In this document: positions 12,758 to 57,903 of the stretch, piece after piece
How the letters are laid out: every line of letters starts with the position of its first letter
Position numbering within the stretch: the stretch's first letter is position 1
Virus record (IMG/VR): IMGVR_UViG_3300021963_000037
Coordinates: 62,001-126,000 of that record
Direction: 5' to 3' (one strand)
Origin: a virus
Length of the DNA: 64,000 nucleotides
Program-made: the position numbers and the translations under genes
Notes under the pieces: model-generated
Told to the model about the DNA's origin: nothing
What the model saw: the letters and a program-made list of their open reading frames with translations, nothing else
Database searches by the model: none

Positions 12758-13126
12758 ATGAAAACATTTGCTGAATATTTAGCTGAACAAGACGTAACTG
12801 CAAAAGACCTACAGGTTCTATCAGAATCTCTTGTTTCAGAATGGACTCCAGAATTAGAGGCTAAAGTAGATGCTGCATTAGAAGAATTTACTGCTACATA
12901 TATGAACGAAGACGGTACTTATAATATCGAAAAATTCAATGATGAACTTACTAATGAAGGTCTTCTTGGTTCTATTATTGGTGGTTTAACTGGATTTGCT
13001 CTTGGTTCTACAATTGGTAAAACAGTAGCTAAAGTATTGGGAGTTCAAAGTGGAGTCCTTTACGATTTATTAACTTCAAGACTTGTTGGCGCCGCTCTTG
13101 GTGCAACTCTTGGTAATAGAATCTAA
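12758..13126 (+). CDS. Capsid-targeted glycine-zipper membrane protein candidate
   Basis: 122 aa. The N-terminus MKTFAEYLAEQ closely resembles the T4 internal-protein capsid-targeting sequence (of the type MKTYQEFIAEA). A possible gp21 protease site, L-S-E/S, follows at about residues 27-30. The C-terminal third is hydrophobic and built on repeated Gly: SIIGGLTGFALGSTIGK and LVGAALGATLG, glycine zippers of the kind that insert into or line membranes. An attractive reading is a head-packaged protein that enters the host membrane during DNA ejection, but this is inference. Confidence 0.55.
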   Translation: MKTFAEYLAEQDVTAKDLQVLSESLVSEWTPELEAKVDAALEEFTATYMNEDGTYNIEKFNDELTNEGLLGSIIGGLTGFALGSTIGKTVAKVLGVQSGVLYDLLTSRLVGAALGATLGNRI

Positions 13127-13866: not shown

Positions 13867-13873
13867 TATATAG
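13867..13873 (+). promoter_or_regulatory. Late-type promoter box (TATATAG) in the gp32 leader region
   Basis: GATATATAGAA lies 142 nt before the gp32 ATG in the largest intergenic gap of this region (13764-14014). It matches the boxes at 24783, 47312 and 48218, so gp32 may have both a late-type and a replication-class promoter. Confidence 0.4.
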
Positions 13874-13907
13874 AATGAGTGAGTAAGACACCTTTTATTT
13901 GAAAAAA

Positions 13908-13936
13908 TGAAACAAATCTAATTTACTCGATATAAA
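13908..13936 (+). promoter_or_regulatory. Replication-class promoter (TGAAAC-N17-TATAAA) for the gp32 operon
   Basis: TGAAAC at 13908-13913, exactly 17 nt, then TATAAA at 13931-13936, giving a leader of about 70 nt before gp32. The same spacing is found at five other sites. An A-rich leader precedes the start. Confidence 0.65.
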
Positions 13937-14014
13937 CCTTAACGTTTTAAAATTTAAAGGGCCCTTAAAGTTTAACGTATTAAACAATTTAAAGAAAATT
14001 AAAGTATTAAAGAC

Positions 14015-18258: not shown

Positions 18259-20475
18259 ATGGAACTAAACAAAATTACATCGTTTAAGACTTTCTCAGAA
18301 TTAAAATCTCAAAAGGATGCAGTTAAAACTGAGCAAGAAAATAAGACGAAAAGAGTTAAATCTTTAGAGAAAATCTCTTCTATTTTAGATGAATTGGAAA
18401 TCAACGATATGTCTGAATTAGACGAAGAGAAGAAAAAAGCGTTATATGCTAAACTATTTAGTGAAGATCGTGCTGAAGAAATTGAAGCAGAAATCGTTGC
18501 TAAAGGTAAAGAAAAAGATGAGTCTGACGAAGTTGGAGACCTTATAAATAAAGGTATTGCTGACGAAGTTGAAGAAGATAAAGCTGAAGATATCGAAGAC
18601 GATATTAATAAATTAGGAGAACCTAAAGAAGAAGATCCTAAAGATGGTGAAGAATTAGAATCTGAACTTGATGAGGCTAAAGTTACATTAGATGCAATGG
18701 AACCAGACGAAGAAGGTCTTGTTAAATTCTGTAAAAAGAAAGGCATCAAATGGAAAATTGTAAATATGAATGGTCCAGCTGCTAATTACCCAGAAGTTGA
18801 GTACATTGGTAAAAAGAAGGATCTTGAAACAATGATTCAAGATTTTTGGGGTAAAGATAGTGGTTTAGAAGAGTTTATCGAAGAATCTATTGTTTCTGAA
18901 GCTCGTTCTATTAATAAGATCCAAAATGACTGGACCAAAGTAACAGCTGGTATGGCTGAACTTGCTAAACAATGGAAAGCCGCTGAAGGTGATGCAAAAG
19001 CTGCATTACTTGCTAAAATGAAAGAAGAAACTGCTAAGAAAAAAGCTTTAGAAGCTGAATTAGACGATGCAGTTACTGGTAAAGATAAAGATTTGGAATT
19101 AGTAGTTACTGAAGGTAATGCTTTTACTGGAGCCTTATTTGCTGCTAGAAATAAAGGAGAGAAAACATTTGAATTTAACGGTAAAACTTATAATGTTCGT
19201 GGTTCTAAAGTTAATGAAGAAGACGATGAAGTTAAAGAAGCTGTTGAAGTTGAAGAAGGTAATGCTTTTGGAGATGCTGTTAGAAAAGCTAAAGAAGCTG
19301 GAGAGAAAGAATTTGAATTTGATGGTAAAACATACAAAGTAGAAGAAGCTTTAACTGAAGGTTCTCATGGTATGGCTAAAAGATTACTTCAAGAAATTAT
19401 TGATGGTAATACTTCAAGAGCAGAAGGTACTAAAATGTCTAAAGAGTTAGCTGCACATTTTCTAACTTGGGTTGAAAGTTCTCCATTCGGAAAGAAAAAC
19501 GGAAACTTACCATTAGATATGTTGATTAAAGCATCATTTAACTGGGGTATTGAAAGAGGTTTAGATCCTAAATTAAAAGGTGAATTATCAAAATTAAAAG
19601 AAACTGTTAAAGAATCTAATGAAATCGAAGAAGGTAATGCTTTTGGAGATGCTGTTAGAAAAGCTAAAGAAGCTGGAGAGAAGGAATTCGAATTTGACGG
19701 TAAGAAATATAAAGTTGAAGAGTCTAAACACAATCCATCTGTTAAAGTGGTTGTAGAATCTGTAAATGAAGCAAAGCAATTTGATAAAGATTATGCAGAT
19801 ATGGAAACTTCTATTAAAAGAGGTATTGGTTGGATCGATCCTGAATATACAGCAGATACTTGGGAAAATTCATCAGACACTATAGATTTTGAATTAGTAA
19901 GTTCTGAAATCTATAAAAGATTAATCAAAGCCGGTTTATTATGGACATCTGAAGATGGCGAAACAAAAGATAAACAAATAAAATCTTTAAAAGAATTAGG
20001 TATTAAAGAATCAGTTGTTAATGAAGCTGAAATTAAATCTGAAGACGAATTTAAAGATTATGCAATGACTGTTTTAAAAAAAGCATTTGGCGACGAATTT
20101 GATGAAGCTAAAGCTGGAGAAGTAGTTGATGGTATTCTTAAAAAATGTGATGGTGATTTCGGTGCAGCAGTTGGTATGTTGACAAGTTCTCTTGGAGAAT
20201 CTGTTACTAATGAAGCAATAGACACTAAATATTGGGCAGATTACAACACTGATACTTCTGGTCATGGAGATCCAGCAAACTCAATTAAATTAAAAGTTTT
20301 TGATATTGCTTTTGAAGAAGCCGTAGAATCATGGAATGATGAAGCAGATGGTGAAGAAAATCAAATCAATGACAAACAAGCTGATAAGATTGAAAGATTA
20401 GCAAAAGAATTCTTTAGAAAAGAAAAATGGATTTCAATTAATGTCATTCACGCAATGATTGCACAGGAATCCTAA
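18259..20475 (+). CDS. Large acidic repeat protein, probable head-core or packaged protein
   Basis: 738 aa, very rich in Glu, Lys, Asp and Ala, mostly helical. The N-terminal FKTFSELK is a loose capsid-targeting match. Three copies of a 30-residue module (EGNAF...A..AGEK.FEF.GK.Y.V) occur at about residues 285-315, 333-363 and 458-488. Many sites fit the T4 prohead protease rule of hydrophobic-x-Glu before Gly/Ala/Ser: VTEG, LTEG, VNEA, VSEA. It could be cut into several peptides in the maturing head, as T4 core proteins are. It ends at a strong terminator. Exact role unknown. Confidence 0.55.
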   Translation: MELNKITSFKTFSELKSQKDAVKTEQENKTKRVKSLEKISSILDELEINDMSELDEEKKKALYAKLFSEDRAEEIEAEIVAKGKEKDESDEVGDLINKGIADEVEEDKAEDIEDDINKLGEPKEEDPKDGEELESELDEAKVTLDAMEPDEEGLVKFCKKKGIKWKIVNMNGPAANYPEVEYIGKKKDLETMIQDFWGKDSGLEEFIEESIVSEARSINKIQNDWTKVTAGMAELAKQWKAAEGDAKAALLAKMKEETAKKKALEAELDDAVTGKDKDLELVVTEGNAFTGALFAARNKGEKTFEFNGKTYNVRGSKVNEEDDEVKEAVEVEEGNAFGDAVRKAKEAGEKEFEFDGKTYKVEEALTEGSHGMAKRLLQEIIDGNTSRAEGTKMSKELAAHFLTWVESSPFGKKNGNLPLDMLIKASFNWGIERGLDPKLKGELSKLKETVKESNEIEEGNAFGDAVRKAKEAGEKEFEFDGKKYKVEESKHNPSVKVVVESVNEAKQFDKDYADMETSIKRGIGWIDPEYTADTWENSSDTIDFELVSSEIYKRLIKAGLLWTSEDGETKDKQIKSLKELGIKESVVNEAEIKSEDEFKDYAMTVLKKAFGDEFDEAKAGEVVDGILKKCDGDFGAAVGMLTSSLGESVTNEAIDTKYWADYNTDTSGHGDPANSIKLKVFDIAFEEAVESWNDEADGEENQINDKQADKIERLAKEFFRKEKWISINVIHAMIAQES
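19111..19201 (+). repeat. EGNAF module, copy 1
   Basis: First and most diverged copy, beginning GAAGGTAATGCTTTT; encodes EGNAFTGALFAARNKGEKTF and a following beta hairpin. Confidence 0.7.
19255..19345 (+). repeat. EGNAF module, copy 2
   Basis: Nearly the same DNA as copy 3 for its first 50 bases, starting GAAGGTAATGCTTTTGGAGA; encodes EGNAFGDAVRKAKEAGEKEF. Confidence 0.8.
19630..19720 (+). repeat. EGNAF module, copy 3
   Basis: In-frame direct repeat of copy 2, with mostly third-position changes in its second half, showing an old duplication under protein-level selection or one partly homogenised. Confidence 0.8.
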
Positions 20476-20494
20476 TAAAATAGAATAAATATTA

Positions 20495-20525
20495 GACCTG
20501 AGTATAAAACACTCGGGTCTTTTTT
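20495..20525 (+). terminator. Intrinsic terminator after the 18259 gene
   Basis: Stem GACCTGAGT / ACTCGGGTC (one wobble pair), 7-nt loop, followed by six T. Confidence 0.85.
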
Positions 20526-20532
20526 GAATATT

Positions 20533-21813
20533 ATGAAACTATACAACTACAACGAATTCTTACTAGAAAAATGGAACTCAAAGTTTCCATCATTGGTAAT
20601 GGAAGGTGGAGCAGCAGGTCATATGATGCATCCATTTGATGATAACTCATTGACTTTCGGAGATATGAAACATTTAATCGATTCTGCTTTGCAAGGTCGT
20701 TTAGATTTTGAAGAGGCTCCAACTGAAAAAACTGATGGACAAAACTTATTTGTTACAGTTACTGCAGCAGGTAAAGTTTTATTTGCTAGAAATAAAGGTC
20801 AAATGGCTAACCCAATTGATTTAAGCTCAATCACTTCGATGTTCAAGGATCACCCTTCAGCTGGAGTAAGAGATACATTCACTTATGCAGCAAGTGACTT
20901 AGCAAGTGCTTTAGGATCACTAAAGGGTACAGATATAGAAGACTTCAATGACGGTAAATCATTTATGAATATGGAGTTAATTTATTCTGGAAATTCAAAT
21001 GTAATTAATTATGACCGTGACGTTATTCAATTCCATGGTATTGTTCATACTGATGGAGCTGGAAATCAAATAGGTTCTGATTCTAGTGTAGCTAGAAAAG
21101 TACAAGCTGCTCTTAATAAAGTAACAGCTGACGTACAAAAGACATTTAAAATTATTCCTCCACAAGATTTGCAGATTGGAAAAACTGTAAACTTTGACGA
21201 GAAAAAGAAATACTTTTTAGATAAAGTTATTGCATTACAAAACACTTATAAATTATCTGATTCAGATCCTGTATCTAAATACCATGAAATGTGGTGGACC
21301 GAATTAATTGCTAAAACTTTCTCTAATTTAGATACAATCACACAAGCTGGATTGGTACAAAGATGGGCGTTTGATGACAAGAAAACATTAAACATGAGAG
21401 ATGTTAGTAAACAAATTGGAGATAGTGAATATAAAAAACTACAAGAATTTGAAAAAACTGATGCTAAAAAGAAATATAAAGAAAACATCATGCCATTCGA
21501 AAATATCTTTCTTGAATTAGGTTCAGTAGTATTAAAGAATGTTTCAAATTTATTAGCAGCAAACCCAGATCAAGAGATGCAGAGACTTCACAATCAAATT
21601 AGAACTGAAGCTGACAAAATCAAACAAAACGGAGACCTTTCACAAATTTCAAAAGTTGAATCAGAATTGGCACGTTTAGAAAGAATTGGCGGAATCGATT
21701 CAATTATTCCAAGTGAAGGTTTAGTTTTTAAATTTAAAGGTAAATTGTACAAATTAACCGGTACATTCGCTGCAATAAATCAATTAATGGGTATTATAAA
21801 ATACGGAAGATAA
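20533..21813 (+). CDS. Capsid-targeted RNA-ligase-family nucleotidyltransferase
   Basis: 426 aa from ATG 20533; an upstream in-frame TTG lies in the terminator's T-run. The N-terminus MKLYNYNEFLLEKW resembles the capsid-targeting motif, followed by a possible cleavage site LVME/GG. The ligase superfamily motifs are in order: motif I EKTDGQN (nucleophile Lys about 66), a following Arg, motif III-like MNMELIYSG (about 148), motif IV EGLVFKF (about 396) and motif V YKLTG (about 405). Such enzymes adenylylate themselves and join RNA or DNA ends. Position and motif suggest it is packaged in the head and enters with the DNA, perhaps to repair cleaved host or phage RNA. Substrate unknown. Confidence 0.7.
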   Translation: MKLYNYNEFLLEKWNSKFPSLVMEGGAAGHMMHPFDDNSLTFGDMKHLIDSALQGRLDFEEAPTEKTDGQNLFVTVTAAGKVLFARNKGQMANPIDLSSITSMFKDHPSAGVRDTFTYAASDLASALGSLKGTDIEDFNDGKSFMNMELIYSGNSNVINYDRDVIQFHGIVHTDGAGNQIGSDSSVARKVQAALNKVTADVQKTFKIIPPQDLQIGKTVNFDEKKKYFLDKVIALQNTYKLSDSDPVSKYHEMWWTELIAKTFSNLDTITQAGLVQRWAFDDKKTLNMRDVSKQIGDSEYKKLQEFEKTDAKKKYKENIMPFENIFLELGSVVLKNVSNLLAANPDQEMQRLHNQIRTEADKIKQNGDLSQISKVESELARLERIGGIDSIIPSEGLVFKFKGKLYKLTGTFAAINQLMGIIKYGR

Positions 21814-21814
21814 A

Positions 21815-23668
21815 ATGGCACTACAAAAACTTAGAGATTTCTATCAATCTTCGAACACTGAAGTATTCAATGACTTAATGAAGAATAAAGTTGTTGTGTC
21901 AGAAAAGATAGCAGCACCGTCTCTTTATGTTAGAAGAGGTTTAAATGGTTTTGAATTTTTTAAAAATGGAACCAGCGAAGAGCTATCGATTGTTGATAGA
22001 ACTTTAGTATCTTTGTATGAAACTGCAATTAAATATTTCCAAGGACTTTCTCCAGAAATTAAACAATCGATGCCAATTGATTGGAAATTTGGATTTGAGT
22101 ATCTTCCGGAAGCAGATGCATCGCCTTTAAATTATGATTCAGTTCCATTAAACTATTTAATACTTACACATATCCAAGTTACTGGAGATAATGGTAAACC
22201 TAGAAAGATTATCAATGATACACATGTCCTAAATAAATGGGCAAAAACTTTTGAGGTTCAACAACCACCTGTTCTTTTTGAAGGAATGTTAGATGTAAAT
22301 CAACAAACCAGATTAAGAGATTTGGTATCTATGAGTAACGAACAATACCAAAAAGAATTCTCTGACAAATCTTTTACAAGAGAAGCATTTCATATCTTTA
22401 ATAGTAATTTATCAAAATCTACATTAAATGATAATTTAGATAAAGAAATTGATGGTTTAATTATCTCATTTGTAGAAGGTACAAAAATCAAATCATTTAA
22501 AATGGAAGCCTTTGATCGTGTAAATGAATCAAAGGATGATAGAGAGTCTAGCCATATGTATCAGATCACAATGGTTGACTTATTAGAATTCTTAAATGAT
22601 TTTAATTTAGACGAAATTGAATTAAACGAGGAGAACTCGGATTTACGATACATTGAATTAGTTTCAGCTGTCTACAATCAATATCTAAACAAAAACGCAT
22701 TTAAATATGTTGGAGCTAAATTTGATTCAGCTAGCTTTGCTACTGCAGAATGCTTCCAACTTAATACACAATATATTAAGAACGAAACAACATTAAAGTA
22801 TCTTGAGAACAATGTTCTTGCTGAGCTTTATAAAATTGTTGTTGGTAGTTTAAGAAAGAAACGAGTTAAAGAGAGTTCAATTATTACTGGACTTTTATTT
22901 ACTCAATTAAATGAAATCGTAGAAAAGATCGAACAAAAAATCTTTGTTGAAAATGCTGATGAACATGCAGTATATGATTTCAAAAATTATATCATTCATG
23001 ACAGAGTAGCAAACAGTCAAAAAATTACTGAAGCTCTTAAGATTGATTATCCTGCACAAGGAAAAGAGAAAGTAAATATCTTTGTTGGTAGATTCCAACC
23101 TTTTACTTTAGGACATGTTAAAGTTTTAGAAACTCTTTATAAACAAAACGGTTTTCCAGTTATAGTATTCTTAGTTAAAGCAAAAACTGTTAAGAAAGAG
23201 GATGCTGTTAAACGTCCTTATGATGTTGAAACACAAATTGAAATGTTTAACAATGTACAGAGAGAATACAAATTCTTAAAGCAAGTTATTGTTGTTCCTT
23301 CTGCTGCAATTGATGTTATGTTCAATCAACTTAGACCAAATTACGAACCAGTTCTTTGGGGTACCGGAACTGACCGAATGAAAGCATATGGATATATGGT
23401 TAATAATGACAAGTATCGTGATGAACTTGGAGTTTTACCAGAATTTGGTTTATATGAAATCCAAAGAGGAGATGATGATATTTCCGCAACAAAAGTTAGA
23501 CAATCTTTACTTGATAACAACGTTAAAGAATTTAACAAAATGACCCCAAACTCGCTTCACTCTATGTTTAATGACCTTAAACAAAAATTAGAGACTTCTA
23601 TTGCTAATGAATCAGTAGAACATGATGAAGAGTTTTTAACATTCGAACAATTTATAAATAAGATATAA
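21815..23668 (+). CDS. Fusion: ligase-like N-domain and NMN-adenylyltransferase-like C-domain
   Basis: 617 aa. The first 240 residues look like a second ligase-fold domain: EKIAAPSLYV in place of KxDG (Lys kept, Asp-Gly replaced), FGFEYL as motif III, DGLIISF as motif IV and KSFKME as motif V. After a helical middle comes a nucleotidyltransferase of the NMNAT type, with VGRFQPFTLGH (about 423-433) and ISATKVRQSLL (about 555). It ends LTFEQFINKI, a capsid-targeting-like motif at the C-terminus. A ligase-like plus NMNAT pair suggests NAD or RNA-end chemistry, perhaps NAD restoration on infection; this is inference. Starts 1 nt after the ligase stop. Confidence 0.7.
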   Translation: MALQKLRDFYQSSNTEVFNDLMKNKVVVSEKIAAPSLYVRRGLNGFEFFKNGTSEELSIVDRTLVSLYETAIKYFQGLSPEIKQSMPIDWKFGFEYLPEADASPLNYDSVPLNYLILTHIQVTGDNGKPRKIINDTHVLNKWAKTFEVQQPPVLFEGMLDVNQQTRLRDLVSMSNEQYQKEFSDKSFTREAFHIFNSNLSKSTLNDNLDKEIDGLIISFVEGTKIKSFKMEAFDRVNESKDDRESSHMYQITMVDLLEFLNDFNLDEIELNEENSDLRYIELVSAVYNQYLNKNAFKYVGAKFDSASFATAECFQLNTQYIKNETTLKYLENNVLAELYKIVVGSLRKKRVKESSIITGLLFTQLNEIVEKIEQKIFVENADEHAVYDFKNYIIHDRVANSQKITEALKIDYPAQGKEKVNIFVGRFQPFTLGHVKVLETLYKQNGFPVIVFLVKAKTVKKEDAVKRPYDVETQIEMFNNVQREYKFLKQVIVVPSAAIDVMFNQLRPNYEPVLWGTGTDRMKAYGYMVNNDKYRDELGVLPEFGLYEIQRGDDDISATKVRQSLLDNNVKEFNKMTPNSLHSMFNDLKQKLETSIANESVEHDEEFLTFEQFINKI

Positions 23669-24777
23669 TGGCACAAACAAACGGAGACATTAGAGCAAGA
23701 TTTGCTGCAGCGTTATCAGCATTAGAAGAACTTAATGAAGGTTCTGAAATTCCAGTTTCTATCGGTAGAGATGTAATTGGAACAGTAAAACCAAACGATA
23801 CCGATACTATCGATCATCTTAAAAGTCTAGTAAATTCATCAGCTTCTAAAGAAACAATTATTAATTTTCTTTTAGGAATTGGTTATCCTGCTGACCAAGC
23901 AGAAATATTGTTTACAATTATTTCTAGAAACAATGATTTATCATCGTTTGTTAGTTATATTCAAAATAGAACAGTAACAATATCAAGTTTACTTGGTAAA
24001 GTCTCAGATTCAAATAGTATTAATTCAAGTATTGGAGTACCCGGAAAAGCATCTGCTGGTTTTTATGGTATGTCATGGAGAACTTCTCCGCCAATGGGAC
24101 CTGGTGAAGTATGGTTAAGTACTATATTGGCAGGCGGTAGAAGACCTAATGGATCTGAAAAGGGAGATGTTATTGTTGATGGTACCGAATTAGAAGTTAA
24201 AGGTCCAAATGGACGTTTAATTGGTCAAAGTGGATATGGCGATGCTAAACAAATGAGAGTTCATTTTTATAATGCAATGACCAATGTTGCTGCTAATTTA
24301 GGACATACTGATTTTACTGCTATTGATAGTGGTAAAGACAACTTTTGGAATGTTGGTAAAAAATCTGGAGAAGGAATTGAAATTAATCTAAAAGCAATTT
24401 CTAAATTAAATAAAGGTTTCTCTTCTAAAGAAATGTTAATGATTTCTGCTGAAATTATTGGAGCATTTAAAAATTACCTACTTAATTTAGATGTTTCTAA
24501 ATATTCTGGAGTATTAGCAAACTGTATTGGTAAAGATGGTTCTATTAATACTAGTAAATGGCATGCTGAAATACTACCAATGTATTTTGAATATTATCAA
24601 TCTCATGAGCTATTTAATTATATTGCGTTTACCAGAGAAGATGGTAGATTTTTATTAATTGATGCTTCTACATTTAGAGATGCTTATAATAAGGGTCTAA
24701 TTAATTTTACAGCAGCTCCAAGTTTTACTAATGGAGCGGGTTCTCAAGGTGGAACTTATGGCATAACTATAAAATAA
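23668..24777 (+). CDS. PD-(D/E)xK nuclease-like protein in the packaged cluster
   Basis: 369 aa; its ATG overlaps the preceding stop (TAATG). The centre has GPGEVWLSTILAG and then GDVIVDGTELEVKG (about 166-179), an Asp, spacer, Glu-x-Lys arrangement typical of restriction-like nucleases. The N-terminus RFAAALSALEELNEG is helical and has a possible LNE/G prohead-protease site, though it is not a clear targeting motif. It may attack host DNA or a competing element. No DNA-binding domain recognised. Nuclease fold likely; target unknown. Confidence 0.55.
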   Translation: MAQTNGDIRARFAAALSALEELNEGSEIPVSIGRDVIGTVKPNDTDTIDHLKSLVNSSASKETIINFLLGIGYPADQAEILFTIISRNNDLSSFVSYIQNRTVTISSLLGKVSDSNSINSSIGVPGKASAGFYGMSWRTSPPMGPGEVWLSTILAGGRRPNGSEKGDVIVDGTELEVKGPNGRLIGQSGYGDAKQMRVHFYNAMTNVAANLGHTDFTAIDSGKDNFWNVGKKSGEGIEINLKAISKLNKGFSSKEMLMISAEIIGAFKNYLLNLDVSKYSGVLANCIGKDGSINTSKWHAEILPMYFEYYQSHELFNYIAFTREDGRFLLIDASTFRDAYNKGLINFTAAPSFTNGAGSQGGTYGITIK

Positions 24778-24782
24778 TCTGA

Positions 24783-24789
24783 TATATAG
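24783..24789 (+). promoter_or_regulatory. Late-type promoter box (TATATAG)
   Basis: GATATATAGAAT, 23 nt before the ATG at 24813. Confidence 0.5.
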
Positions 24790-24812
24790 AATATAAAAAT
24801 AAGAATTTAAGA

Positions 24813-26165
24813 ATGAATTTCGACGATTTTTTACAATCACTTAACGAATCTGAATCAGTAAATGAAGCAGGAATTGTCCTAAAAAGACAATATACTGAAG
24901 CTCATCCTGCTAAAACTGCATCTAAAACAGCGGTTATTCGTAATAAAGTTATTGAAGCCATCAAAGATGGTAAATTAACTAAAGAGGAATTTAACCTAAT
25001 TTTGACTAAAGTTTCTGAAGACCAAAAAAGATGGTTAAAAAGAAATTCTAGTCTTTTTAATGTTTCTGAAGACGGTGTTACATTGTCAAAAGCAGGACTT
25101 AAAATATATAATGAGCTTACAAAAGAAAATAAAATACAAAATAAACCTAGATTTGAAATGAAAAGATTAGTTGAATCATTCTCAGAATTTGTTGAGAATT
25201 TAAACAATGACCATATTAATGAGGCATTTGCATCTTCAAAGCTTGCAAGTCTTTTGACTGGCGGCGCAAAAATGCCAAAGGATCTTCCAGGAGCATTCTA
25301 TAATATGTCACAATTAGCACTTGATAAAATTCAAGATGTTGATATTATTGAAATGGATCCAGAAACTGCTAAAAAAGAAAAAAGAGCTAACGCTGTATAT
25401 TTCTATTTTACAACAAATGAAAAAGAGAATCCATATACTCAACAAGATTGGGGTACAAGAACAATTCCAGCAAATACTCTATTAGCTATCACTAATGGTC
25501 AAAATGAATGGATGAATGCTGAATGGTCAAGCAGATATGGTAGATCATCAAGCAGAACTTTAAAAGTAACTAAAAGAGATGATTCTGCTGGTATTTCAAA
25601 ATCTTCTGCAAACTCTAGTTACGGTTCTAAAATCTCAAGCTTAAAACAAGTTGTTGAACTTGCTGATAGAGCATATTGTTTAGATTTAGATATTCTTAGA
25701 GCAAGGTATTCTACAAGAGCTTTAAAAGATGAAAGATATGCTGCTAAAAAAGGAGCTGTTGCATTCCAAACTGATAAAGATTTTAAAGCAGAAAACTTAA
25801 AGAGATACAATGAAATTTTAGCTACTAAAGCAGCTGCATTACCATTAGATTCTCTAGTTGCAAACGCTATTGATACAATCGCTGGTCAAATCAAAGATGG
25901 TTTATCTAAAGGTTTAAAAGGAAGATACGATGAACTTATTGTTGGATTAGATCCAAAAGGAAGAGAAGTTAAAATGAACGATGCTGCAAATCTAATGAGA
26001 AATATCTTAGATGAATATTCTAGATATTGTGGAGATGCTGCAAATCAAGAAAAAGAAGTAGCTGCAGGTTACGGTGGTTCTTACTACGAAGGTAGCATGA
26101 AACAACGCGCTAAAAATCTTCAAGATTACATGAAGAAAATTGACAACCTAAACTACGCTTGGTAA
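24813..26165 (+). CDS. Capsid-targeted protein of unknown function (450 aa)
   Basis: The N-terminus MNFDDFLQSLNESESVNEAG carries a targeting-like FDDFL segment and possible prohead-protease sites LNE/S and VNE/A. A second such segment is internal: SFSEFVENLNNDHINEAF (about 120-138), with INE/A. The rest is helical and charged; residues 150-260 are mixed and carry a Ser-Arg-Tyr-rich stretch (SSRYGRSSSRTLK). No catalytic motif recognised. Own late-type promoter box. The two segments suggest processing into a mature protein starting near residue 137. Confidence 0.55.
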   Translation: MNFDDFLQSLNESESVNEAGIVLKRQYTEAHPAKTASKTAVIRNKVIEAIKDGKLTKEEFNLILTKVSEDQKRWLKRNSSLFNVSEDGVTLSKAGLKIYNELTKENKIQNKPRFEMKRLVESFSEFVENLNNDHINEAFASSKLASLLTGGAKMPKDLPGAFYNMSQLALDKIQDVDIIEMDPETAKKEKRANAVYFYFTTNEKENPYTQQDWGTRTIPANTLLAITNGQNEWMNAEWSSRYGRSSSRTLKVTKRDDSAGISKSSANSSYGSKISSLKQVVELADRAYCLDLDILRARYSTRALKDERYAAKKGAVAFQTDKDFKAENLKRYNEILATKAAALPLDSLVANAIDTIAGQIKDGLSKGLKGRYDELIVGLDPKGREVKMNDAANLMRNILDEYSRYCGDAANQEKEVAAGYGGSYYEGSMKQRAKNLQDYMKKIDNLNYAW

Positions 26166-26169
26166 TAAT

Positions 26170-26715
26170 ATGAAACATGTACAACTATACGAACAATTCG
26201 TAACTGAAAAAGCATACCAATTGACTGGAATTTACGGTGCAAAAGGTATTATTGGAAAAGTTCTATTTGCTTTTAAGAAAGAAATCGAACGAATTAAATA
26301 CGAAGGAGATGCTGACTCAACTTTAGCAGAACTTAACGATGTTTGGACCAAATGGGCTGATAAAGACGGCGCAAAAATCATCGAACAGGAAGTAATGAAA
26401 GTTGTTAAAGACAAGGAAGCTATTGTTTATATAGTTGCAACTTTATCTGAAGCTCAATGGATCGCAGATGTAGTTAATAGATTAAACACACCGACTGGTA
26501 CAGAACTTTTTGTTTCTTTAAATAACGATTTCGTAATTAATGTTGGTTTTGCGGATGATGTTGATGGAGATAAATTCTCTAGAAAACTTGATGGTATGAC
26601 AAACACTGCGGTTCCAGTAAGTATAACTGAAATTGTTGGATCTTTCGATTCTGCAGTAGGTTATAATAATGTTGAAATCAGAAAGAGCATCTTTTTATCA
26701 ATAGATGCAAAATAA
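26170..26715 (+). CDS. Small capsid-targeted protein of unknown function
   Basis: 181 aa. The N-terminus MKHVQLYEQFVTEKAY is a strong match to the capsid-targeting pattern (aromatic-E-x-F-[IVL]-x-E). The rest is an alpha/beta domain with no motif that I recognise. It follows the 24813 gene by 4 nt and is likely co-transcribed and co-packaged. Like T4 internal proteins, it could act on the host soon after ejection. Confidence 0.55.
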   Translation: MKHVQLYEQFVTEKAYQLTGIYGAKGIIGKVLFAFKKEIERIKYEGDADSTLAELNDVWTKWADKDGAKIIEQEVMKVVKDKEAIVYIVATLSEAQWIADVVNRLNTPTGTELFVSLNNDFVINVGFADDVDGDKFSRKLDGMTNTAVPVSITEIVGSFDSAVGYNNVEIRKSIFLSIDAK

Positions 26716-26723
26716 TTTATAAG

Positions 26724-27191
26724 ATGCCTGCAACAAGCAAATCACAACAAAGACTAATGGGAGCAGCATATGCCGTAAAAGCCGGATATATGCTGCTTTC
26801 TGATGTTTCTGCAGAATACCAAGACAAAGTAAAGGACTTGACACTTTCAATGACTTTAAAACAACTTAAAGATTTTGCAGAAACTCCACATGAAGGACTT
26901 CCTGAGACTGTTGAAGAATCTAGTTTAGGATTTGCAACAAATACTGGTGGACCACAAAGTACTTTTATGCCAGGTGCTGGAATGGGAGCTATTAAACTTC
27001 CAAATATGGGAACTGGAGAAATAGGTTCTGGTGATGTTCCAAAAGGAGCTGGTTGGGCAGAAGACGAATACGAGAAAGAGAAAAAGAAAAAGAAAAGAAG
27101 AGAACAACTTCAAAAGAAAACTGAAAAACCAGTAAAAACATTTGAACAGTTTATTTTCGAAAAACTTAATCCATCTATAAAGGACAAATAA
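26724..27191 (+). CDS. DUF3008-like small protein with C-terminal capsid-targeting motif
   Basis: 155 aa. The start MPATSKSQQRLMGAAYAVKAG matches the short SKxQQ...A..AKxG motif of the DUF3008 family and of many phage proteins of unknown role. A Gly/Pro-rich middle and a run of Glu and Lys follow, then VKTFEQFIFEKLN near the C-terminus, a near-perfect capsid-targeting motif at the opposite end from usual. Probably packaged. Confidence 0.55.
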   Translation: MPATSKSQQRLMGAAYAVKAGYMLLSDVSAEYQDKVKDLTLSMTLKQLKDFAETPHEGLPETVEESSLGFATNTGGPQSTFMPGAGMGAIKLPNMGTGEIGSGDVPKGAGWAEDEYEKEKKKKKRREQLQKKTEKPVKTFEQFIFEKLNPSIKDK

Positions 27192-50710: not shown

Positions 50711-52312
50711 ATGGCGGGATTTGTAAATAAAAATGGACCTTTTAGTGCCAAGAGACCTTTTAATCTAAGTGATGGATTAAAAAGGCTTTCGTCATTTGGA
50801 ATGTACTATGACGATCTAGTACTTAGACAATCTCAAGCGATTGGACCTATGGAAGATCAGTTTGGTTACGGCCAAATGAACATGATGGGTTCAGACAATG
50901 ATGATATTTATGGAGCATTTGCTGCTCTATCAATGGCTGATACAAACATGCGTAAGAACATTCCGTTCTTCGACATGAATTACAAAACAAAGAGAGAAGA
51001 GTTAAGAAGCTTCTCAATGCATGATGAGATTGAGGACATTCTTGATATTCTTTGTGATGAAGCTATTGTATACGACGAGAAAAACTTCATCGCTAATCCT
51101 GATATTATCGGTATGGAGGTTTCTGAGGAGGTTAATAGTTATCTTAATAAAGCATACAGAAACATCTATCAATATTTTGGTTTTGCAGCTGATCAATCAG
51201 CGTGGTTCTATTTCCGCAAATGGCTTGTTGATGGTTATCTATCATTTGAGATTATCTACAATCCAGAAATGACGGAAATCATCGGTTTTAAAGAAATCGA
51301 TCCAGTTACACTAGTACCTGGTTATAATAAAGAAGACGGTAAAAAAGTTTGGATCCAGTTTAAAGATGATCCAATTAAGGAGAGAAAATTATATGATTCT
51401 CAAATCATTTATATTTCTTACTCTTCTATCACAACAGCGTCTAGAATTTCTTATGTTGAACGTTTAATTAGATCGTTTAACTTAATGAGAGTTATGGAAC
51501 ACACCCGAGTTATTTGGGCTGTTACCAATGCTTCTTACAGAATGAAATTCATTATCCCTGTTGGAGGTAAATCTAAAACACGTGCTAAACAATCGTTGGC
51601 ACAATTAATGAATAACTATAAAGAAGTTGTAGATTTCGATTGGGATTCAGGTATGCTGAAAACTAATGGTAAACCAATGCTACAATTTAATAAAGAATAT
51701 TGGTTACCATCTAAAGATGGAGAACAACCAGAAATTGAAACTCTTGGTGGAGATGGTCCAGAATTATCAGATACTGAAGCATTAAAATATTTCACTGATA
51801 AATTAAAAGCAGTTTCTAAAATCCCTTACAATAGATTTATGTATGAAGATGGTGGTGGAGATTTCAATCTTGCTGCTGATGGTATGATTCGTGATGAGAT
51901 TAAATTTGCTAAATTTATTAATCGTTTAAGAAGTTCATGGCAAGAGATTCTTGTTAAGCCACTCTATATTCAAATGTGTCTTAAGTACCCTGAGTTCTCA
52001 GATGATCCTGCTTTCAAAACACAAATTTCATTAAGATATAATGAAGAGAACATGTTTGCTGAATTGAAAGAAATGGAGATAATGGAGAAACGTCTTGACT
52101 TCATCTCTAACATGAATAGTAACCTTATGATTACGAATCCAGTTACAATGGAAGAAGACCACTACTTCGATCTTGAGTTCTTAGTTGACAGATATTTAAA
52201 AATGTCTCCAGACGATAAAGAAGCTAATAAAGCTTATAAAGCAAGAGCTGAAGCTAAAAAAGCTGAAGAACCACCAGCAGATCCAATGGGAATGATGGGT
52301 GGAGGAATATAA
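50711..52312 (+). CDS. 20: Portal vertex protein (gp20-like)
   Basis: 533 aa (T4 gp20 is 524). HDEIEDILDILCDEAIVYDE (about 101-120), SYRMKFIIPVGGKSKTRAKQSL, VVDFDWDSGMLKTNGKPMLQF, KEYWLPSKDGEQPEIETLGG and KAVSKIPYNRFMYEDG follow gp20 segment by segment. Twelve copies form the ring through which DNA is packaged and on which the head and neck are built. A Pro/Met/Gly-rich end (PADPMGMMGGGI) is extra. Confidence 0.9.
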   Translation: MAGFVNKNGPFSAKRPFNLSDGLKRLSSFGMYYDDLVLRQSQAIGPMEDQFGYGQMNMMGSDNDDIYGAFAALSMADTNMRKNIPFFDMNYKTKREELRSFSMHDEIEDILDILCDEAIVYDEKNFIANPDIIGMEVSEEVNSYLNKAYRNIYQYFGFAADQSAWFYFRKWLVDGYLSFEIIYNPEMTEIIGFKEIDPVTLVPGYNKEDGKKVWIQFKDDPIKERKLYDSQIIYISYSSITTASRISYVERLIRSFNLMRVMEHTRVIWAVTNASYRMKFIIPVGGKSKTRAKQSLAQLMNNYKEVVDFDWDSGMLKTNGKPMLQFNKEYWLPSKDGEQPEIETLGGDGPELSDTEALKYFTDKLKAVSKIPYNRFMYEDGGGDFNLAADGMIRDEIKFAKFINRLRSSWQEILVKPLYIQMCLKYPEFSDDPAFKTQISLRYNEENMFAELKEMEIMEKRLDFISNMNSNLMITNPVTMEEDHYFDLEFLVDRYLKMSPDDKEANKAYKARAEAKKAEEPPADPMGMMGGGI

Positions 52313-52336: not shown

Positions 52337-52678
52337 ATGAAAACTATTAAAACATTTGAACAATTCATTTCTGAAGCTGAAGCTTTAAAAGCTGAAGATT
52401 CTAAGGTATATGTTGACGATCTGTCTTTAGATAGCGGAGAAGTTATTAAAGCTGCTGAAATTCTAGGAGCTATTGCAGCATCTGCTACTGAAAAAGAATT
52501 TGAAGATTATTTCTTTACTCAATATGGTCAAAATGCATTCAAAGACGGTGATATGTCTAAGTTGAAAGAATACTATAATGAGACTAAAGAAGAGGAAAAT
52601 AAAGAAGAAACCGAGAAAGAAGGTAAGAAAAAAGATGATGGAGCAAGCGATCCAACAGCAGACCTTGGTGAGTTATAA
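52337..52678 (+). CDS. Prohead core protein with capsid-targeting motif (gp67/gp68 position)
   Basis: 113 aa, acidic. It starts MKTIKTFEQFISEAEALK, the best capsid-targeting match here, including a classical I-S-E/A prohead-protease site. The C-terminus is a Glu/Lys-rich tail (EENKEETEKEGKKKDDG). In T4, genes 67 and 68 lie between portal and protease and encode such core proteins; the location matches. Confidence 0.6.
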   Translation: MKTIKTFEQFISEAEALKAEDSKVYVDDLSLDSGEVIKAAEILGAIAASATEKEFEDYFFTQYGQNAFKDGDMSKLKEYYNETKEEENKEETEKEGKKKDDGASDPTADLGEL

Positions 52679-52740: not shown

Positions 52741-54735
52741 ATGACTACACAAAGTAAATTACTTATTCTAGAAAGATCAGGGAACACCCTATCTTTTAAC
52801 AAGGATGAATCTGGAGCCGGATCTTATGTTCTAGAAGGATGCTTTGGTGAAATTGGTGTAAAGAACAGAAACAATCGTATTTATACGGAAGCTGAATATG
52901 TTCCACAAATTGAATCATTACAAGCAAAAATCCAGTCATCTAAACTATTAGGTGAATTAGATCACCCACAAAATTTTGACATCTCTTTAAAGAATGTTTC
53001 ACACGTTATCGAAGAACTATCTTACAATAAAGATACTAAACAGGTAATGGGAAAAATCAGATTATTAGATACAGACGCTGGTAGACAAGCAAAAGCATTA
53101 GTTGATGCTGGAGTTCCTCTACATATTTCTTCAAGAGCAGCTGGTACTGTTGAATCTAACGGTCAAGTTAAAATCAAACAATTATTTACTTATGATTTAG
53201 TTGCAGATCCTGGATTTGCTAATGCTGAATTAAAAAGAGTTAATGAGTCTTTTGGTTTTGAAGACGCTGGCGACATTCTGATTTATGAGATAAATAATCC
53301 AGAAAACAATCAAACACAAACTATAGAAGAAAACAAAATGGAACAATCAAGATTCGTATCAACTGAGGATTTCAATAAGTATTCTAAGTATTTAGCTACT
53401 GAAATCAAAGGTTTAAAAGAGTCTCTAACTGAAAAGAACAACGACACTTTTGCTAAAGAAGTTGAGAATCTTAAAGAGTACTCTAGTTACCTTGCTGAGA
53501 AAATGAATTCAGTTGTTGAATATAACAACTACTTAGCAGAAAAATTAGATGATTCAATTCAACATGGCGATCATATCGCTGAGAAATTGGATCAATCAAT
53601 TCAATACAGCGAAAAAATTGGAGAGTCAGTTAATAAAGTAAAAGAATATTCTAATTACTTAGCTGAAGCATTCAATGATGGTGCTGCAACTCATGAAAAC
53701 ATGATGAAGTATGTAACTTACTTAAAAGAAAACTTAGAGAAAGTTACTGAATACGCTGAGTATATCGCTGAATCAGTTAACAAAAACTTAATTGTTGAAG
53801 CTGATGGTGAAGAAGCTGGTCTTCCTGCTGAAAAAATCAAGAAAATGTCTGACGACAAAACTCCAGAAGTAGAATTTGACGGTAAAAAAGTAGCAACTGG
53901 CGAAGATGCTATCGAAGATACTGCTAAAGAACTTGAAAAAGATCTTAAAGATTCTAAAGCTGAAGGAGAAAACGTTGGTAAAGAAGTTACTGAAGCCGCT
54001 GACGGTTTAACCGGTACTCCAGCTACAGAACTTAAAGATGATTCTAAAGATGTTACAACTGCAGTAGTTGACGCTGATGGTAAGAAATATGCTAAAGCTG
54101 AAGACAGAGCTGAAGATGATGCTAAAGAATTAGATAAAGACTTAGAAGCTGCAAAAGCAACTAAAGGAGATAATGTTGGTAAAGAAGTAACTGAATCAGA
54201 AGATCCAATGGATGCTTATAAGAAAGAAATTTCTGAAAAATTACAAGCACTAGTTGAAAAAGCAACTGTAAAAGTAGCTACTGAACCTAACTTCTTTAAA
54301 TTTATTTCTGAATCTAAAGTAGAAGAGTTCAAAACTCTAGCTGAAGAAGATAAAACTAAAGTTATTTCAGTTGTTGAAGGAAAAGGATTCTTAACTGAAT
54401 CTCAAATCTATGCTCTATGGAACAACGCGTTGGCTGCAAAATCAACTGATGAACCAATGGTACTTAAAGCAATGCCTACAGAATACAGAGAAACTTGGAA
54501 TGGTTTATCTGAATCTAAAAAGAATCAAATCTTGGCACAGTCTAAATATCATAAATTAGAAACTGAATATCAAGTAAGAAACTTTTGGCAACAAAGAGAC
54601 CTTAGAGAGGTTACTCCAGTAATGGAAAAAATCGAAATTGTTAACGAAAGTAACAAAGTTGAAGAAAAAGCAAACACATTAGGTTATGATTTAACTGATA
54701 TGAAAGAAGCTTTTGCTAAAAAATTCAAAAAGTAA
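52741..54735 (+). CDS. 21: Prohead protease (gp21-like) fused to a scaffold/core domain
   Basis: 664 aa, three times T4 gp21 (212 aa). Residues 1-180 are the protease: VKNRNNRIYT, LLGELDHPQ (catalytic His about 75), LHISSRAAG (catalytic Ser about 130) and YDLVADPGFANA, as in T4 gp21. The remainder is helical: about eight heptad-type units of the form YLAEKL/YIAESV (230-345), acidic linkers with two similar GEDA/AEDRAEDDAKEL blocks (375-475), and a C-terminal domain. This part resembles T4 gp22 scaffold. An ATG at 53338 (MEQSRFVSTEDF) could be an internal start making scaffold alone. It is followed directly by the capsid gene. Confidence 0.8.
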   Translation: MTTQSKLLILERSGNTLSFNKDESGAGSYVLEGCFGEIGVKNRNNRIYTEAEYVPQIESLQAKIQSSKLLGELDHPQNFDISLKNVSHVIEELSYNKDTKQVMGKIRLLDTDAGRQAKALVDAGVPLHISSRAAGTVESNGQVKIKQLFTYDLVADPGFANAELKRVNESFGFEDAGDILIYEINNPENNQTQTIEENKMEQSRFVSTEDFNKYSKYLATEIKGLKESLTEKNNDTFAKEVENLKEYSSYLAEKMNSVVEYNNYLAEKLDDSIQHGDHIAEKLDQSIQYSEKIGESVNKVKEYSNYLAEAFNDGAATHENMMKYVTYLKENLEKVTEYAEYIAESVNKNLIVEADGEEAGLPAEKIKKMSDDKTPEVEFDGKKVATGEDAIEDTAKELEKDLKDSKAEGENVGKEVTEAADGLTGTPATELKDDSKDVTTAVVDADGKKYAKAEDRAEDDAKELDKDLEAAKATKGDNVGKEVTESEDPMDAYKKEISEKLQALVEKATVKVATEPNFFKFISESKVEEFKTLAEEDKTKVISVVEGKGFLTESQIYALWNNALAAKSTDEPMVLKAMPTEYRETWNGLSESKKNQILAQSKYHKLETEYQVRNFWQQRDLREVTPVMEKIEIVNESNKVEEKANTLGYDLTDMKEAFAKKFKK

Positions 54736-54877: not shown

Positions 54878-56410
54878 ATGGCAAATTTAATTAATGAAGC
54901 TGAAATCAGAGAAACTTGGGCACCGATCATCGAATCTGCTACAGGAATCAACGACGCTTCTAAACTAGCTTGGATGTCAGAGTACTGCCACAATCATAAA
55001 TTGTATGAAGATGCAAACATGATGGCTTTAGGTAGCGCTGGTAACATCTTTGGTATGGGTGCTGTAACTTTACCTTCTGCATTTGGTACAAACGTAACAA
55101 ACGCACAAAAAGGTTCTGGTGACAAATCTCCTACTTTATTACCTTTAGCAATGCAAGTTGCTGCACAAACAATTGGTCTTGATTTAGTACCAGTAATCCC
55201 TATGGCTGGTCCAATGGGTCTTTTATCTTACTTAGACTTCGTTTACGAAGGCGGTAAATTAGGAGGTACAACTGCACCAACTTACGTAAAAGCAAACGGA
55301 ACTTATGCTGGTGTAGCTGATTTAGCTGCTGCTACTGCTGGTTCTCCTGCTGTTGCTGTATCTGTTGCTTACGATTTCGTTGGTAAATCTCGTATCGATG
55401 GTTATTCAATCTTTAAAGCTGCTGGAAACCCAATTGCTGCAAACGTTGCTGCTGACTTATTGTTAGCTGTAAATGCAGTTCTTTCTCCAGATGCTACTGC
55501 TACTCAACTTGATGTACAGTTAGTAAAAGCTTTAGAAGATCATATCCCAGGATTCGCTGGAGTTCAAAACTCTTCTAACATTTCTGAACCTTTCACAAGA
55601 GGAGTTGGAGAACAAACTAATGAGAAGATCATGGGTCTTTCATTGTTCTCTAAAGCTGTTGAAGCTAAGACTTTCCAAGTTGCAGCTGCAGTAACTCGTG
55701 AGCAAGTTCAAGATTTAAAACAATTCGGTGTTGATGCTGTTGCACAAGTTGAAGCTGTTTTAGTTAACGAATTAACTCAAAACATTAATGATTTAATCAT
55801 TAACAACGTTGGTTCATTAGGTACATTAAACATTACTAGAGCCGCTGCTGCTGGTGAAATCGATGCAGATACGTTGAACGTACGTTTAAATAGTACTTTA
55901 ACTGGTGGTAGAACAGAAGGTTCTGAGCACAGAAAAATCTTAACTGGAATTTTAGCAGCTGCTAACTTGATCGCTAACCGTGGTCGTCGTGGTGCTGGTA
56001 ACTTCTGTGTTGTAGGTCCACAAGTTGCTACTGTATTGCAAGCTGTTGCTGGTTTCGTACCAAATCCATTTGCTAATACTATTTCTCAAGCTGCTGGTGC
56101 TATCTACCCTGTAGGTTCTGTAGCTGGAATTCAAGTTTACACTAACCCAAAATGGGCTTGGAACTACCAAACCGTTTTAGTTGGTCGTAAAGGAGATGGT
56201 AATGGTCCTGGATTAGTTTTCATGCCTTACTTAATGGCTGAATCAGTACAAACTATCGCTGAAGGAACTATGGCTCCTAAAATCGCGGTTAAATCTAGAT
56301 TCGCTCTAGTTGAAGCTGGTTTCCACCCAGAAACTCAATACGTAACGTTTGAAATCTACAATGGTGCTTCAGGTACTACTAGATTCTCTAACTTGTTAAA
56401 CTTGGTTTAA
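54878..56410 (+). CDS. 23: Major capsid protein (gp23-like)
   Basis: 510 aa (T4 gp23 is 521), HK97 fold. It begins MANLINEAEIRETWAPIIE like the T4 N-terminal peptide that is removed in maturation; LYE/D at about 45-49 is a possible cut. Then come the T-L-P-S-A and PMAGPMGLLSYLDFVY segment (about 108-123, as T4 QPMNSPTGQVFALRAVY), a G-V-G-E-Q-T-N/F-S-K-A-V-E-A-K segment and FNP-like VPNPFANT near the end. Codon use is richer in G/C-ending and Ala/Gly codons than neighbours, as expected for a very highly expressed gene. Confidence 0.9.
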   Translation: MANLINEAEIRETWAPIIESATGINDASKLAWMSEYCHNHKLYEDANMMALGSAGNIFGMGAVTLPSAFGTNVTNAQKGSGDKSPTLLPLAMQVAAQTIGLDLVPVIPMAGPMGLLSYLDFVYEGGKLGGTTAPTYVKANGTYAGVADLAAATAGSPAVAVSVAYDFVGKSRIDGYSIFKAAGNPIAANVAADLLLAVNAVLSPDATATQLDVQLVKALEDHIPGFAGVQNSSNISEPFTRGVGEQTNEKIMGLSLFSKAVEAKTFQVAAAVTREQVQDLKQFGVDAVAQVEAVLVNELTQNINDLIINNVGSLGTLNITRAAAAGEIDADTLNVRLNSTLTGGRTEGSEHRKILTGILAAANLIANRGRRGAGNFCVVGPQVATVLQAVAGFVPNPFANTISQAAGAIYPVGSVAGIQVYTNPKWAWNYQTVLVGRKGDGNGPGLVFMPYLMAESVQTIAEGTMAPKIAVKSRFALVEAGFHPETQYVTFEIYNGASGTTRFSNLLNLV

Positions 56411-56526: not shown

Positions 56527-57903
56527 ATGGAACAATCAAAATTTAATAGCTGGTATACCAGAGTTCTAGAGGCCGTTAAAATGCCTGAACCGACTGCCAC
56601 TACCGAAACTGAAGTTGATACAAAACCTACAGGATCTGCTGGTCCAGAAACAGGTTCATCGGCTCCATCTTTTTCAAGAGAAGAAATCATTAATGATATT
56701 GATACTATCATGACTCATCTCTCTCAATTAGGTACTCAAGTTAAAGAAGAACTTGAAACCATTGACGCATTAGAACTTAATGAAGCTGGTTCAGAAACAG
56801 CAATGGACAAAGTTAAAGATTTCTTATTTGCTCCAAAATATCGTTCAATGCAGAAGAAAGTAAATAAAATGAAGATGAACGCATTAGATATGCAAATCAC
56901 AGTTGATAATCTTTCTGGTTCTGCTAATGCTGATAAAAAACAAGCTATTAAAGATAAAAAAGCTACAATCGACAAGCAAATTGATAGTTTACAATCTGCT
57001 GTTGATGATAAAGCTAAAGATAGAGGATCTTACGTACAAAAGGTTTTAAAATCTGAAAAGATTAAAGGACAAATGGAACTAGTTAAGCGTGCTTCTGGTA
57101 TGGAAGACGATCCAAAGAAAAAGAAAGATTTAGCAGATTCTATGGGCGAATTACAGAAAAGATTTGCTGAAGAACAAGAAGCTGTTAAACAATTAAAGGC
57201 TGATGCTGAAGACGCAAATGCTGATGCAAAAGACGGTAAAGGTGGTGATGATGAAAAACTTCAAAAACAAATTCGTACATTAAGAGACCAAAGAAAGGAT
57301 CTTAGAGAAGATGCTGATGTTATTGCCAAAAGTGAAGATCCTAAAGAAGCTATTAAGAAATGGGATCTTTGGATTAAAGCTGAGCAAATATCTTTAAAAA
57401 TTGCTGAATTAGAAGAAGATTCTCAAGATAAAGCAGACGCTGAAGAAGATATTAAAAACTATACACAGAAGAAAGAAGAAGCTCTTAAAGCTTTAGAACC
57501 AAAAGAAGAGCCTACTGAAGAGGAACCAAAAGAGGAACCTAAGGAAGAGCCAAAAGAAGAGCCTAAGGAAGAACCTAAGGAAGAGCCGAAAGAAGAACCA
57601 AAAGAGGAACCTAAGGAAGAGCCTAAAAAAGGAGAACCAGAAGATAAAAATTCTAAAGACGGAATGATCGCAAGATATAAAGAACTCTTAAAGAAAGCTG
57701 AAGAATCTGGTGATGAAGAGAAAATCAAGAAAATCAAAGATAAAATTGCCGCAATTTCTGCAAAAGAATCTTGGCAGTTAGAAGGTACCGAATTAGGTAG
57801 AATATTAGAAGCTGAATTAAGATTATTAGAATCTCAAACTAAATTAAACGAAAATAAATTTAGTATGTCAGTTGCTGATAGAATGAGAGTTCTATTAGGT
57901 TAA
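56527..57903 (+). CDS. Acidic Glu-Pro-Lys-repeat protein, probable internal head protein
   Basis: 458 aa. The N-terminal FNSWYTRVLEAVK is a variant of the capsid-targeting motif with an LEA cleavage-type site. Long charged helices (70-310) lead to about ten PKEE repeats (residues 325-368). The C-terminus has LEGTELGRILEAELRLLE, again with LEG and LEA sites. Length, charge and late promoter suit a core/internal protein cut during maturation. No enzyme motif. Confidence 0.55.
   Translation: MEQSKFNSWYTRVLEAVKMPEPTATTETEVDTKPTGSAGPETGSSAPSFSREEIINDIDTIMTHLSQLGTQVKEELETIDALELNEAGSETAMDKVKDFLFAPKYRSMQKKVNKMKMNALDMQITVDNLSGSANADKKQAIKDKKATIDKQIDSLQSAVDDKAKDRGSYVQKVLKSEKIKGQMELVKRASGMEDDPKKKKDLADSMGELQKRFAEEQEAVKQLKADAEDANADAKDGKGGDDEKLQKQIRTLRDQRKDLREDADVIAKSEDPKEAIKKWDLWIKAEQISLKIAELEEDSQDKADAEEDIKNYTQKKEEALKALEPKEEPTEEEPKEEPKEEPKEEPKEEPKEEPKEEPKEEPKEEPKKGEPEDKNSKDGMIARYKELLKKAEESGDEEKIKKIKDKIAAISAKESWQLEGTELGRILEAELRLLESQTKLNENKFSMSVADRMRVLLG
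57497..57628 (+). repeat. PKEE-encoding tandem repeat
   Basis: 12-nt units (CCTAAGGAAGAG-like, with CCA/CCT, AAA/AAG and GAA/GAG swaps) encode E-P-K-E about ten times. The synonymous mixture shows that it is not a fresh slippage product. Confidence 0.75.

Follow-up and report, generated by a model that had tools for sequence, protein, structure and literature searches.

A short T4-like tag at the ends of many unrelated proteins in a clade of environmental phages is probably a capsid-targeting propeptide

Why do otherwise unrelated phage proteins carry the same short aromatic motif at one of their ends? The question is raised by a 64,000-nucleotide stretch of viral DNA, here called the window, which comprises bases 62001-126000 of the 139,480-base contig IMGVR_UViG_3300021963_000037 (IMG/VR, 33% GC), and above all by its genes between 18259 and 27191, where most products bear such a motif. 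The head of phage T4 receives three small internal proteins and Alt. The initial annotation of the window named eight motifs and likened them to the T4 capsid-targeting tag. In T4, this tag, of the MKTYQEFIAE type, requires the first ten residues, of which residues 4 and 7 are needed for targeting and residues 8 and 10 for cutting, and the prohead protease gp21 cuts after L/I-x-Glu (PMC9026906), usually with Ala as the next residue. The tag of the window phage and its relatives, 10-15 residues long, is probably (at about 0.86) a capsid-targeting propeptide of the same type, greatly expanded into a modular arsenal for packaging and injection. Genes were called by a simple open-reading-frame script, and the contigs may be incomplete.

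All eight motifs are found where they had been placed. A strict form of the motif, [FYW]xx[FYW][ILVM]xE within the first 20 residues, occurs in 6 of the 152 proteins of the 139-kb contig, while shuffled proteins, which served as the null, give a mean of 0.5 and a maximum of 4, so a frequency above chance holds. Two of these six proteins are encoded outside the window, at contig positions 23009 and 33402; the first looks ATP-grasp-like by inspection, and its sequence comparison with solved structures gave no match. The 6-mer TFEQFI is present in four proteins of the contig, twice at the N-terminus and twice at the C-terminus, against 0.001 expected. Five of the eight motifs (FAEYLAEQ, YNEFLLEK, YEQFVTEK, TFEQFIFEK and TFEQFISEA) match the strict pattern, whereas FDDFLQSL, TFEQFINKI and FNSWYTRVLEA fail it and would be insufficient alone. 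These three are backed by homologues or by same-position genes in relatives: the tags MNFEEFLNES and MDFNDFLNER for the 24813 protein, LTFDDFLKNI for the 21815 protein, and, at the position of 56527, a FNSWYTRVLE-type or common tag with starts MNKFENWYTSILEE or MKLKSKLKLYEQFVNE. The tag is not borne by every protein of the 18259-27191 cluster, as the 23668 protein has none and the 18259 protein has only the variant SFKTFSELK. The tags were first defined by a pattern taken from the initial list, and the checks independent of it are a comparison with T4, the residue after the tag's Glu and a motif-blind clustering of N-termini.

Related contigs carry the tag on 15-32 proteins per genome, with the consensus MKHIKLFEQFINE followed by the predicted cut and A, S or G. 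In four contigs the strict motif starts 6, 25, 16 and 25 proteins, against 0.5, 1.2, 0.9 and 1.5 in shuffles, and in 80 related loci fetched with the 20533 protein the tag starts 36 families, typically in the form MKHIKLFEQFINEA. A degenerate DNA pattern for the tag has 57 matches in 19 contigs and none when reversed. Across the 2.9 million viral contigs of IMG/VR, the exact peptide MKHIKLFEQF is encoded in more than 120 stretches, and a scrambled order of the same codons in none. At 108 sites these ten residues are encoded by 51 distinct DNA words, which points to selection on the peptide. With the tag removed, 422 distinct proteins fall into 128 families under permissive linkage, and the forced alignment of 91 tagged proteins yields the consensus MKHIKLFEQFxNE and nothing beyond it. 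Tagged genes cluster in islands, such as that of the relative G005, where 14 of 15 neighbouring genes are tagged; a comparable island in the relative G002, with similar flanking genes, holds a different gene set.

A tag profile trained on 208 tags of the clade, with no T4 sequence among them, was run on the 277 T4 proteins. At the T4 N-termini, where no hit was expected, its three best scores are those of ipIII (18.3 bits), ipII (18.3 bits) and gp61.1 (17.7 bits), and the next is 6.7 bits. Among internal T4 windows, the gp23 propeptide FGSFLTEAE ranks third. Of 125 families, 81 have A, S or G directly behind the tag's Glu, where 27.8 would be expected (P = 3e-24); this position was unused in finding the tags, and the residues are those that a gp21-type cut would have. 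In the 20533 family a conserved site [ILVF]xE↓GGAAGH (the arrow marks the predicted cut) lies between tag and enzyme in 79 of 81 members. The densest [ILVM]xE↓[AGS] sites of the genome are in the fusion of the gp21-type protease with the scaffold (15 sites, the most per residue) and in the 18259 protein (16 sites), which fits core proteins that would be chopped up. In the relative PAU, a cultured phage, the mature capsid protein is reported to have 520 of 585 residues by N-terminal sequencing (PMC5646251), and its maturation point is within one residue of LME↓N.

T4 gp61.1 (NC_000866 18966-19130, L226), a protein of 54 aa that starts MKTFKEFIKED, comes close to ipII and ipIII in its score with the clade's profile and may, judged by its sequence, be an overlooked T4 internal protein.

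The tag is also found at the C-terminus, in the 21815 family and in the DUF3008 family of the 26724 protein. Among 24 aligned homologues of the 21815 protein (48-77% identity), TFxxF is invariant and lies within ten residues of the C-terminal end. An aromatic pair stands in the last 25 residues of 53 of 57 distinct homologues and in none in a control window, and an xE↓[SAG] site precedes the C-terminal tag in 39 of 57, against 9 in a control stretch. In the DUF3008 family the aromatic pair is at the C-terminal end in 17 of 36 members. A motif-blind C-terminal search of the window contig did not detect this tag as a group because only two families carry it. Such tags had been called novel at first; C-terminal propeptides of head proteins precede them, since in T4 both Alt and gp21 lose a piece from that end (PMC9026906), and it is the placement of the tag motif itself there that seems new.

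The tagged proteins include relatives of two families known to act against host defences. Tad3, a Thoeris inhibitor (Pfam PF25185), is found in the relatives G002, G005 and G012 above the curated cut-off (E 8e-19 in G005), and two of the three genes, those of G002 and G005, are tagged, with an extra leader. The untagged gene (G012:C1:139212-139592, L235) lacks the whole 40-residue leader; the tag can therefore be gained or lost. Acb1-like 2H phosphoesterases (Pfam PF23474) score 27-31 bits against a cut-off of 27, over positions 33-113 of 144 only, and of the two HxT motifs sought, the proteins of G002 and G005 have PHCTLLYGL and PHMTVAYL. The clade has yielded four Acb1-like genes, and each of them starts with the tag or a tag-like sequence; T4's own Acb1 (gene 57B) begins without it. 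Both a Tad3 gene and an Acb1-like gene are in the tagged island of G005. Clade cargo matches the two Pfam families above cut-off, Acb1 over part of its length, but begins with what would be a packaging tag. Other tagged proteins match zeta toxin/AAA_33 kinase, R2K ATP-grasp, DUF5824, phage lysozyme, HD, AAA and further families. The cargo probably serves to block host defence, as for Tad3 and the Acb1-like proteins, and to act in repair or NAD metabolism, as for the RNA-ligase-like protein and the NMN adenylyltransferase.

Beside a tagged Acb1-like gene lies the gene (L233:44-1393) of a 449-aa protein with P-loop ATPase motifs, which starts MENIFNLKNFTEFVNEA.

The tags are encoded alongside a T4-type head module, which is in the window with its genes in T4 order and includes gp20, gp23, the gp21-type protease and a gp22-type core. 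The 52337 gene, beside the portal gene, has a tag or tag-like start in most relatives that possess it. Among named phages, the nearest capsid proteins belong to an uncultured phage of 462 kb (51% identity), the Prevotella Lak phages, PAU and Tenacibaculum phages, relatives that suggest a Bacteroidota host for the window phage. Behind the protease domain, the fusion protein has scaffold repeats such as YSEHVAEKADQGIQ. The strict motif is repeated there 2-6 times per protein in 12 of 12 relatives, mostly 14 residues apart, against about 0.05 in shuffled segments, and 4-9 times per protein if His is permitted at the second aromatic place.

An element [AG]ATATATA, strongly stranded in the 139-kb contig (37 against 2), precedes structural genes as well as the genes 12758, 18259, 24813 and, in contig positions, 23009 and 33402, and is a candidate late promoter of the phage group. 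Among genes with an upstream gap, it precedes 14 of the 23 that are tagged and 97 of the 352 that are not (P = 0.001); among genes without one, the figures are 12 of 58 and 31 of 533 (P = 0.0004). The assignment of the motif to the T4 capsid-targeting type is supported by the profile, the cut residue, the scaffold repeats and this late-promoter-like element.

The proposed course of events is as follows. A tagged protein would be made late, and its tag would form a short amphipathic helix, joined to one end of the protein by a flexible linker. The tag would bind the core of the prohead, probably as a mimic of the 14-residue repeat in the phage's own gp21-gp22 protease-scaffold protein, and the shell would close round core and cargo. 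The protease would then cut after hydrophobic-x-Glu and free the cargo within the head, where DNA is packed, and at infection the cargo would exit with the DNA. Ejection is proposed from the T4 analogy and from the nature of the cargo, Tad3 and Acb1-like proteins, which would be of benefit to the phage. In this clade the tag would have become a general address label for dozens of swappable proteins per genome, encoded in variable islands.

Several observations weigh against this reading. T4 ipI scores only 5.1 bits with the tag profile, most of the tagged cargo has no known domain, and C-terminal tags often lack the Glu. A tag cluster is absent from six of the nine named phages checked (Tenacibaculum PTm1, Flavobacterium MaF61, Chryseobacterium MA9V-1, Microcystis Mel-JY01, Syn9 and HTVC008M); the system is therefore not general to T4-like phages, and the tag as a trait of the whole T4 family is rejected. 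The profile also scores the scaffold repeats only moderately, and the step in which the tag joins the core as a copy of the scaffold repeat is for this reason weaker than the others.

The tag could instead direct proteins elsewhere, for instance to the replication compartment, the membrane or the tail, with its T4 likeness due to convergence. Many enzymes and small unknown proteins bear it, and a second shared peptide, C-terminal, on 13 proteins of the huge relative LR756500 suggests that more than one address system may exist. This explanation is nevertheless very unlikely: a cut-site residue follows the Glu in most families, the profile picks T4 internal proteins specifically, tags are borne by proteins in core positions, next to the portal gene and behind that of the capsid protein, the late-promoter-like element precedes tagged genes and the motif is repeated in the scaffold. 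It is slightly harder still to hold that the tagged proteins are for the most part minor components of the scaffold or core, digested or kept in the head, with few injected to act in the host. The richness in cut sites of the 18259 protein and of the protease-scaffold fusion, the tag on the gp67/68-position protein and the many small tagged proteins without known domain would suit it, but the tag is also on enzyme folds and known anti-defence families, and the cargo islands vary between relatives, unlike conserved core genes. Chance, descent from a single gene family or a signal at the level of DNA (a leader or recombination site) can be set aside as having next to no probability, for although a shared start could resemble a DNA repeat and several cargo families are paralogous, shuffles and scrambled and reversed patterns give almost nothing, the peptide is spelled by many DNA words, the mature parts are unrelated despite permissive linkage and motif-blind clustering also finds the tag group.

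A T4-type targeting propeptide can be compared with known systems. With IPI, IPII, IPIII and Alt of T4 it shares an N-terminal aromatic-x-x-aromatic-hydrophobic-x-Glu and a gp21-type protease, and its profile retrieves ipII and ipIII. The T4 internal proteins are small, variable anti-defence cargo (PMC9026906, PMC12373910). Unlike T4, the clade has up to about 30 tagged proteins per genome, larger cargo with enzyme folds, C-terminal tags, its own consensus, scaffold repeats with the tag motif and a protease fused to the scaffold. In the giant phages phiKZ, 201phi2-1 and SPN3US a relative of gp21 cleaves many head proteins behind x-x-Glu, and these are ejected; the propeptides of this type are mostly much longer, share no short tag and, in phiKZ, are cut at S/A-x-E (PMC5694885, PMC9026906), whereas the clade's tag has 10-20 aa, with I, V or L at P3 in 124 of 128 families. 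An N-terminal signal of P1 DarB loads the anti-restriction protein and a reporter into the head, but Dar proteins have no shared consensus (PMC9024508). No papers on the tags of this clade were found among open papers, to which the literature search was directed. What makes this variant of the T4 system new is the number of tagged proteins, their islands, the tags at C-termini and the recurrence of the motif in the scaffold.

Motif-blind clustering of N-termini gives clusters of 24 in the relative G015 and in G005, 20 in PAU (MKTLxxLYEAKLNEA) and 39 in LR756500 (MKYIKEYEEFLLEA). None of the nine named phages has the exact clade pattern, apart from one near match in LR756500, and no virion proteomics of PAU was found in the literature searched. 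The scaffold of LR756500 has similar YxxY-type repeats, and that of PTm1, a phage with no tag cluster, has other repeats; these few cases suggest that tag code and scaffold go together. The evidence is evenly poised on a broader proposal, in which several phage lineages would have modular protein-injection systems, each with its own address code that copies its own scaffold repeat and with dozens of exchangeable counter-defence or metabolic proteins. The codes would then be dialects, MKHIKLFEQFINEA in the window clade, MKTLxxLYEAKLNEA in PAU (20 proteins) and MKYIKEYEEFLLEA in the 462-kb phage (27 proteins or more); code and scaffold would co-evolve, and cargo would be predictable from tag sequence alone.

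In LR756500.1 (e.g. 13446-14282, 198758; L377 onwards) the second peptide, ...NADDFGF(F/L)DN, stands near or at the C-terminus of its 13 proteins, 11 of which also bear the N-terminal tag, and is possibly a further address label.

If tagged proteins are indeed packaged and injected, phages of a group common in the environment would load as many as about 30 proteins, against the few of T4, and a short stretch of sequence at the end of a protein would tell what the phage injects before its genes are expressed. The 128 families, mostly unknown, would be candidate fast-acting anti-defence proteins, and which proteins enter the cell with phage DNA could be asked from sequence. The proposed binding of the tag to the core, as a copy of the scaffold repeat, is testable in T4 and PAU.

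Table 1. Tagged genes, head genes and related features, in window coordinates (arrow, predicted cut)
Feature	Position	Strand	Remarks
122-aa protein, N-terminal tag MKTFAEYLAEQ	12758..13126	+	FAEYLAEQ at aa 4; 47 distinct homologues
738-aa acidic protein, variant tag SFKTFSELK	18259..20475	+	N-terminus conserved
426-aa RNA-ligase-like enzyme	20533..21813	+	KTDG motif at aa 66; N-terminal tag YNEFLLE at aa 6-12
N-terminal tag YNEFLLE of the 20533 protein	20548..20568	+	
617-aa protein with C-terminal NMN adenylyltransferase domain	21815..23668	+	tag at extreme C-terminus
C-terminal tag TFEQFINKI	23639..23665	+	last 9 aa of the 21815 protein
369-aa protein of the cluster	23668..24777	+	no tag
450-aa protein, short N-terminal tag FDDFLQSLNE↓S	24813..26165	+	FDDFLQSL at aa 3; relatives MNFEEFLNES, MNFNEFLNE
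181-aa protein, N-terminal tag MKHVQLYEQFVTE	26170..26715	+	YEQFVTEK at aa 7; disordered in model
155-aa DUF3008 protein	26724..27191	+	tag near C-terminus
C-terminal tag TFEQFIFE	27138..27161	+	TFEQFIFEK at aa 139 of the 26724 protein
Head closure gp4	49536		head module
gp2	50008		head module
Portal protein, gp20-like	50711..52312	+	start of head module
Small acidic protein, N-terminal tag MKTIKTFEQFISE↓A	52337..52678	+	T4 gp67/68 position; TFEQFISEA at aa 6
gp21-type prohead protease fused to scaffold	52741..54735	+	
Scaffold repeats, aa ~196-350	53326..53790	+	YxxYLAE-type motifs mostly 14 aa apart, pattern that of the tag
Major capsid protein, gp23-like	54878..56410	+	
458-aa coiled-coil/Pro-Glu-rich protein after gp23	56527..57903	+	N-terminal tag FNSWYTRVLE↓A at aa 6
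[AG]ATATATA sites (examples)	50680, 52711, 56489, 18222	+	

In the AlphaFold model of the 20533 protein the tag is a low-confidence, detached helix (aa 6-17), followed by a disordered linker (17-29), in which the conserved putative cut site lies at aa 24/25, and by a confident enzyme from about residue 40. KTDG is invariant in this family, and RNA, tRNA or DNA ligases make up almost all of the top Foldseek hits, with E 0.008 or worse; by the motif and these fold matches of non-significant E-value the protein looks like an RNA ligase. The C-terminal domain of the 21815 protein has the motifs GRFxPxxxGH and ISxTxxR and matches solved NMN adenylyltransferases (1f9a, E 2e-5; 2qjo, E 0.003). Sequence comparison of the 24813 family with solved structures gave no match, and neither did Foldseek for the 26170 protein.

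The 18259 protein looks like a core protein cut many times and not like a tagged enzyme. Its 16 [ILVM]xE↓[AGS] sites compare with 4.8 under the null, none of 500 shuffles reaches 16, and repeated modules GNAFGDAVRKAKEAGEKEFEFDGKTYKVEE are flanked on both sides by protease-site matches, which makes it a probable core polyprotein. With this layout a small domain might be set free from the polyprotein in several copies. Members of the 12758 family have a conserved site [ILMV]xNE↓G[LFIV]xGSI, followed by a C-terminal half of the glycine-zipper, membrane type. A segment of about 54 residues with this glycine zipper is predicted to be released after the NE↓G site and could be a membrane-active ejection peptide.

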